A DNA stretch of 48,385 nt from Prochlorococcus sp. AG-670-O13 (GTDB taxonomy: Bacteria > Cyanobacteriota > Cyanobacteriia > PCC-6307 > Cyanobiaceae): positions 1 to 48,385 of the forward strand of contig QCTB01000003.1 in assembly GCA_003209055.1 (NCBI GenBank), read 5' to 3'. Positions within the stretch are counted from its first letter, which is position 1. The number at the start of each line of letters is the position of its first letter. Below the pieces are notes generated by a model. The model did no database searches. It had not been told where the DNA came from and worked only from the letters and a program-made list of their open reading frames with translations. A program made the translations under genes and the position numbers. Of the stretch, positions 38,937 through 40,427 are shown piece after piece.

Positions 38937-40427
38937 TTAATAAAGATTACTAATAAATTTCTCGGCTATTGTTAAATGCCCATTTAACTTTTCCTTGCTC
39001 ATTTTATCTAAATTCCTTGTTAACATTGCTAGTCTATATTGCTTCCTAAAATAGGTTTCATTATCTTTTATAAATTTCCAAAACAAACCATCCCATATTG
39101 AGCACCATCGACCACTTTTGTAATCAGACATTTTTTTTATGTAATTTGAGCTCGAAATATAAGGTTTTGTAGAAAAGATACCCCCATCGCTAAACTGACT
39201 CATTCCATAAACATTAGGAACCATTACCCAATCGTAAGAATCTATAAACATTTCCATAAACCATTTATAAACTTGATCAGGATGTATACGACATAAAAGC
39301 ATAAAGTTACCAATAACCATAAGTCTCTCAATATGATGACAATAACCGTATTTAATAATATTCTTTATAACAATATCTACCGGCTCTATCCCTGTAGATC
39401 CTTTATAGAACGCATCAGGCATTGGTTTATTCTCAAAATTCCAAAAATTAGTAGTCCGCATTTTTGTACCATATTTTTCATAAACTAGGCAAATAAATTC
39501 TCTCCATCCAATAATTTGACGAATAAATCCTTCCAAAGAATTAATAGGGACTTTATTTTTTTCACAATAAATTAATGCTTTATTTATAACTTCTTTTGCT
39601 GTTAATAAACCAGTATTTAAAAGAGGGGATAGCAAACTATGCCACAAAAAGACTTGCTCTTTGCTAATTGCATCTTCATAATCTCCAAATAAAAAAATTC
39701 TATATTCTAAAAAATCATGAAGCCAATTATCTGCTTCTTCGAAAGAAGTTGGATAAATAAAATTATTACTTTCACCTATAAAATTAATCTTTAAATTTGA
39801 AATTACCTCTTCAGCCTTAATCACAAACTCATTTTTTACAAATTTTGGGATTGGAGGAATATTTATAGTCTTAGGTAATTTATTTCTATTTAATTCATCA
39901 TAGCTCCATTTTCCTCCTTGAGGTGAACCATCAGGATGAACTAATATATTTTGGCTTCTTCTCTGTTTCTCGTAAAATCTTCCCATTATTGGTTTTTTGG
40001 GGTTTAATTTAAAAGACTTTCTTAAGTCTTCATTAGTTATAAACATTGGGGATTCATAAACTTGTAATTTAAGATTGTAAGCTTCAACAAATCTATTTAT
40101 CCTCTTCATAATAAGAAAATCATGAGGATTAATAATGTTTATCTTTTGATATTTTTCTTCTAATTGTTTTGATAAATAATCAAATGTAGAAATATTATTT
40201 TTGTTTTCAATATACAAAACTTTATGACCTAAATTTTCTAGATATTTTTTATATGCGAGCATTGAGGCTTTATGAAAGATCAATTTGTTTTTATGATTAA
40301 TTAACTTATGAAATTTATCATTACCAAAAAATAATGAATCTTCGATCATTAAAATCTCACAATTAAATTCTAATATTGGACTTTCTCTAAAAAGTTGATT
40401 TGGGAAAATGATTGATATTTGATTCAT
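38937..40427 (-). CDS. Photolyase-related protein (prokaryotic 6-4 photolyase/CryPro family), FeS cysteines missing
   Basis: The 496-residue flavoprotein matches the deoxyribodipyrimidine photolyase-related (DPRP/FeS-BCP) family, which repairs (6-4) photoproducts or senses light. N-terminal Rossmann-like antenna part (1-130); FAD-binding helical part with [12 protein letters not shown] (300-311), [15 protein letters not shown] (361-375) and [13 protein letters not shown] (404-416). Family members have a CxxC plus further Cys after the ISxxNYIxxMSDY block to hold 4Fe-4S; here that block reads [13 protein letters not shown] (435-447), shortened and without CxxC. It overlaps the DUF2256 stop by 4 bases and ends a four-gene operon. 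Confidence 0.88.

Follow-up and report, generated by a model that had tools for sequence, protein, structure and literature searches.

The gene on the minus strand at 38937..40427 of the window, the 48,385-nucleotide stretch of Prochlorococcus sp. AG-670-O13 DNA analysed here, is very likely orthologous to PromaPL (Phr2) of Prochlorococcus, a cluster-free prokaryotic 6-4 photolyase of 'subgroup M' that would work as PhrB does but without the iron-sulfur cluster; this assignment follows the published descriptions of PromaPL and subgroup M. P. marinus PromaPL has been described as a prokaryotic 6-4 photolyase devoid of the cluster (PMC9178010, NAR 2022; PMC9426592), and subgroup M is reported to comprise 20 of 110 sequences, all of them without the four cysteines (PMC9178010). 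Picocyanobacterial Phr2 has been equated with PromaPL and divided into two subclades, only one of which has the cysteines (PMC9426592, mBio 2022), while 7% of 464 PhrB homologs were noted to be without them as early as 2015 (PMC4619345). The window gene is thus a new ortholog of an already described cluster-free enzyme, and a claim of novelty for such a protein is not supported.

The open reading frame (P0001) fills the interval 38937-40427 exactly, with an ATG start, 496 amino acids and no internal stop; its strand was absent from the earlier note. A DPRP domain corresponding to the PhrB-like N-terminal antenna (PF04244, E = 3.4e-44) covers residues 6-225 (39753..40412, minus strand), and a FAD_binding_7 domain with the His364-His365 pair (PF03441, E = 7.8e-08) covers residues 306-432 (39129..39512, minus strand), the two domains that together characterize the DPRP/PhrB family in its wide sense. 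In line with this, comparison with the PDB at E<=0.001 gave eight distinct sequences, each of them a PhrB-family 6-4 photolyase or CryB; the match to PhrB itself (4DJA) has E = 1.7e-68. The ortholog of Prochlorococcus sp. AG-686-M10 is 86% identical at the protein level, and those of the high-light type are 76-78% identical. The gene is under purifying selection, as indicated by a dN/dS of 0.120-0.143 (NG86) against four Prochlorococcus orthologs of the named-genome scan. Since a single DPRP gene is found per genome in the six Prochlorococcus-genus genomes examined (6/6), the window gene corresponds to the PromaPL/Phr2 gene.

The ligands of the [4Fe-4S] cluster in PhrB are Cys350, Cys438, Cys441 and Cys454 (PMC3204975). 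Alignment to 4DJA places Pro349 in the column of the first (codon 39381..39383, minus strand), a gap in those of the second and third and Ser443 in that of the fourth, so that the window photolyase has none of the four cysteines that define the FeS-BCP group. Codons 437-443 (KSGRWCS, which includes Cys442 and Ser443; 39099..39119, minus strand, this position and that of Pro349 being computed from residue numbers) encode a short loop that replaces PhrB residues 438-454 with their three ligands. Sixteen residues separate Tyr437 from Cys454 in PhrB and six separate Tyr436 from Ser443 here, which amounts to a deletion of 10 residues. Among the six cysteines of the protein (23, 288, 313, 363, 379 and 442), only Cys442 lies at the cluster site. 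Judging from these columns, the window photolyase is almost certainly without a [4Fe-4S] cluster. The sequence-only reading had described a photolyase-related protein without the iron-sulfur cysteines and had proposed an alignment of the ligands with PhrB; this alignment, in which no ligand column holds a cysteine (0/4), bears that description out for a protein of the DPRP/PhrB type. The string quoted there for a well-kept FAD core ([24 protein letters not shown]) and that quoted for a segment with one cysteine and a deletion after MSDY ([16 protein letters not shown]) are both found in the ORF. The absence of the Cys350 equivalent in the other helix, at Pro349, had not been located there.

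The identical ligand-free state is present in all 25 other Prochlorococcus-type loci (L073-L096 and L103) among the best 80 of 586 relatives, as well as in five further genomes of the same genus. An assembly error was considered and rejected, given this recurrence and the low dN/dS.

The rest of the enzyme is largely that of PhrB. Residues D179, D254, H365, H366, W390, Y424 and Y430 of PhrB are all kept in the alignment, the equivalents of D179, D254, His366, Tyr424 and Tyr430, by which the family is recognized, being D177, D252, H365, Y423 and Y429. In PhrB, loss of H366 abolishes repair, Y424 is needed for lesion binding, and W342 and W390 carry electrons (PMC4619345). The His at position 366 and the Tyr at positions 424 and 430 are present in all 123 cluster-free and all 70 four-cysteine rows. 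Other positions have changed: Trp342 is replaced by Tyr341, Tyr391, Tyr395 and Tyr460 by Phe, and Glu403 by Met, the Phe and Met changes at Tyr391, Tyr395 and Glu403 being common to many cluster-type cyanobacterial rows. As Trp342, Tyr391, Tyr395 and Glu403 are all replaced, photoreduction in the window photolyase must differ from that in PhrB. PhrB homologs without the cysteines were also said in 2015 to lack Tyr437 and Tyr460 (PMC4619345), a statement that our rows fit in part, Tyr being found at these positions in 64/123 and 27/123 cluster-free rows, respectively.

An AlphaFold model obtained with the window photolyase and 46 relatives as input has a mean pLDDT of 91.8 and a pTM of 0.92, the weakest residues being 401-420 (pLDDT 62-64). 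The model matches ten PhrB-family PDB entries with Z scores of 39.7-42.1, as compared to 26.1 for the next photolyase, and it can be superposed on 4DJA over residues 2-496 with a Z of 41.4 and an rmsd of 2.3 (483 residues aligned), so that the predicted fold is that of PhrB, including the roof-like C-terminal part.

The most probable mechanism is one in which the enzyme would bind the flipped-out (6-4) photoproduct, light-excited FADH- would give an electron to the lesion and His365, the second histidine in the HH pair, would protonate it, with the acidic pair Asp177/Asp252 assisting through Mg2+ as in PhrB. In this regard, (6-4) repair by the window photolyase itself is suggested by analogy with PhrB, and the protein is predicted to contain no iron. 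The Cys-to-Ser mutants of PhrB are insoluble (PMC4619345), which implies that folding without the cluster needs compensation; for the present protein such compensation is something that we infer. The short loop and the WC/WQ-x-x-WD-x-L(F/Y)W helix with Pro349 would close the site that houses the [4Fe-4S] cluster in PhrB-type enzymes. We propose that the shortened loop and the Pro349 helix fill this site and thereby make the cluster unnecessary for folding, in which case packing may stand in for the cluster.

The cluster-free state is widely shared and appears as an all-or-none character. The 195 relatives read comprise 123 without a single ligand cysteine, 70 with the full set of four, no intermediate with one to three and two (L031 and L181) that are truncated and were set aside, leaving 193 readable relatives; the values 123 and 70 are not frequencies, as some rows are near-copies. 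A DPRP gene is present in 82/151 Cyanobiaceae genomes, and in the 69 read out of the 81 other DPRP-bearing ones it encodes no ligands in 38, all four in 30 and a truncated sequence in one. The named-genome scan covered the best 80 of 586 confirmed relatives plus two viral loci, and 82/82 are without ligand cysteines, a result to be expected from a query made of an alignment of cluster-free proteins, so that these loci show spread and not frequency. Within the same best 80 of 586, the state extends to 53/53 non-cyanobacterial loci, from Verrucomicrobiota, Bacteroidota, Balneolota, a Spirochaetota and a Planctomycetota MAG. The Bacteroidota among them include presumed soil or terrestrial species such as Chitinophaga rhizophila and Dyadobacter crusticola. 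Another 44 loci, of which 36 belong to the phylum Cyanobacteriota and 8 to plasmids, comprise 40 with four ligands, three with none and one truncated. We also noted a Prochlorococcus-like photolyase (77% identity, with DCC and DUF2805 neighbours) on a contig titled as a Rhodobacteraceae MAG (L074), probably a misbinned Prochlorococcus contig. Carriage of the window gene by phages was considered as well and no sign of it was seen: a search of 50,697 phage records gave no match to the window photolyase, and the two viral-contig loci are distant relatives (43% and 34% identity).

In an unrooted tree of 63 rows (ligand columns dropped, quick method, 24/60 inner branches starred), a single branch (SH-aLRT 99) separates 38 cluster-free from 25 four-cysteine rows, the window photolyase falling with the 37 other cluster-free rows. 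Inside the cluster-free side, the Prochlorococcus and marine Synechococcus proteins belong to a 16-row set together with Verrucomicrobiota, and a second cluster-free type found in other Cyanobiaceae (L050, L052, L054 and L059) branches elsewhere, which implies at least two separate cluster-free lineages within Cyanobiaceae. For rooting, we used class I, DASH-like and short photolyase-like (SPL) sequences over the FAD region (258 columns), the outgroup consisting of only nine of the candidates matching the FAD profile; L154, L186 and L194, whose branches in the unrooted tree are long, were excluded for that reason, and the Phr7-like L001, L215, L216 and L219, together with L210 and L211, none of which matched the FAD profile, were not used as outgroup. 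At face value, the root lies inside the cluster-free rows, which become a paraphyletic, older set with two changes, but the stem branches carry 5 changes per column, and such a meeting of long branches makes the placement untrustworthy. Three SPL outgroups (L212, L213 and L218) have four cysteines at the PhrB ligand columns, as is likewise stated for Phr4/Phr6 (PMC9426592), and these cysteines favour an ancestral cluster that was lost once. That the cysteines were 'lost', as the sequence-only reading put it, is therefore a direction of change that the unreliably rooted tree does not support, and the word is kept here as conventional but unproven. We regard as unlikely the opposite scenario, in which the cluster-free form is the earlier one, or at least no younger than the cluster form, a single gain gave the four-cysteine lineage its [4Fe-4S] cluster, and the picocyanobacterial gene came from Verrucomicrobiota-like bacteria that were already cluster-free.

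The spread of the state also bears on why the cluster is missing. The sequence-only reading had suggested that iron saving would suit an open-ocean cyanobacterium, which as an account of the state would be an adaptive loss in the iron-poor habitat of Prochlorococcus, one 4Fe cluster per protein being spared. However, the ligand-free state of all 53 non-cyanobacterial loci among the best 80 of 586, terrestrial and freshwater heterotrophs (by name) included, and the nesting of the Prochlorococcus and Synechococcus genes with Verrucomicrobiota inside an older cluster-free clade mean that an origin in the ocean or in iron shortage is not required; in addition, four-cysteine enzymes are encoded in 30/69 examined Cyanobiaceae genomes. 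We thus hold the iron-saving account to be very improbable. Equally at odds with the data is the idea that a cluster is still held through Cys442 and non-cysteine ligands. Cys442 does remain at the site, and its position is a Cys in 86/123 cluster-free rows, but the remaining 37, mostly from Bacteroidota, have Gln, Glu, Asp, Ser, Val, Thr or His there, Cys442 aligns with PhrB Ala453, one residue off the ligand register, two ligands have gone with the loop and Cys350 has become Pro; this arrangement is hardly conceivable.

As to function, an alternative is that cluster-free Phr2 repairs CPDs and not (6-4) photoproducts, cluster loss having accompanied a change of substrate. CPD repair has been predicted from the missing cysteines and from a Synechococcus phr2 mutant that proved sensitive to UV-B (PMC9426592), but we consider it unlikely, inasmuch as the PhrB residues linked to 6-4 repair (H366, Y424 and Y430) are invariant in the 123 cluster-free rows and PromaPL is listed as a 6-4 photolyase with reference to Ma et al. 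2019 (PMC9178010). Moreover, other candidates for CPD repair exist, namely a Phr7-like gene in the window's genome and phr1/phr3, which are reported in most Prochlorococcus (PMC9426592). A decayed or non-enzymatic remnant, either a pseudogene or a cryptochrome-like sensor, might also be envisaged, as regulatory effects are described for Rhodobacter CryB, a member of this family (PMC9178010). This is highly improbable in view of the intact 496-aa frame, the dN/dS of 0.12-0.14 and the kept catalytic residues, and mutation of phr2 is reported to make Synechococcus RS9916 UV-sensitive, with phr2 protecting E. coli in a light-dependent manner (PMC9426592). A cluster-free 6-4 photolyase of the PromaPL type is the reading that we retain.

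The window's genome, which is 68% complete, has only two FAD_binding_7 matches. The second photolyase-family gene (L001; contig C33, positions 1291-2430) encodes 379 aa with an N-terminal FAD domain and is Phr7-like by the layout described in PMC9426592. Elsewhere, a second FAD-domain photolyase match (L217 and L214) lies within about 1 kb of the cluster-free gene in one Cyanobiaceae genome (G083) and in one of another genus (G056).

Upstream on the photolyase strand lies a DUF2805 gene (PF10985; 40559..40810, minus strand), a conserved neighbour that is not part of the enzyme, and it overlaps by 13 bases with a gene for a DCC1-like thiol-disulfide oxidoreductase (PF04134; 40798..41190, minus strand), a conserved neighbour as well. 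Both stand beside the photolyase in 24/25 close Prochlorococcus-type loci (L073-L096 and L103, the exception being L094) among the best 80 of 586. Among the same 80, 13/53 non-cyanobacterial loci have DUF2805 no more than 3 kb from the cluster-free gene; going by their titles all 13 are Bacteroidota, and in four DUF2805 directly follows it. Across 151 Cyanobiaceae genomes DUF2805 occurs in 25, all of which (25/25) have a DPRP gene (Fisher p 4e-8, shared descent ignored), and by type it accompanies the Prochlorococcus/Synechococcus cluster-free form in 21/21 of the genomes read, the other cluster-free form in 0/18 and the four-cysteine form in 4/30. Among the papers listed by a literature search pairing DUF2805 with photolyase, none names both, and a functional link of the two would be a guess.

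Taken together, natural cluster-free members beside cluster-bearing ones offer a way to ask what the cluster does, a question still described as open in recent structural work (PMC12082625). To this our results add the all-or-none pattern of ligands (zero or four in 193 readable relatives) with its single split, an occurrence across several phyla that counts against an ocean-iron explanation, and the finding of DUF2805 together with DPRP photolyases in Cyanobiaceae.

With respect to known systems, the window photolyase resembles PromaPL and picocyanobacterial Phr2 in its genus, the lack of Fe-S cysteines, the PhrB-like N-terminal domain and its standing as the only DPRP gene per genome, and no difference of substance from their descriptions was found. 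With Agrobacterium PhrB (4DJA, Z 41.4) and Rhodobacter CryB (3ZXS, Z 41.0) it shares the fold, the FAD core, the HH pair and the equivalents of Tyr424/Tyr430 and Asp179/Asp254, whereas these FeS-BCP enzymes hold a [4Fe-4S] cluster on four cysteines and the window photolyase has none of them, along with a shortened loop, a Tyr in place of Trp342 and Phe in place of Tyr391 and Tyr395. The best fold match is SePhrB of Synechococcus elongatus (8IJY, Z 42.1; FeS-BCP subgroup HC), which according to its published description also has Met at the Glu403 equivalent, but which, unlike what is expected of the window photolyase, bears a cluster, with about 3.5 Fe per protein (PMC9178010).
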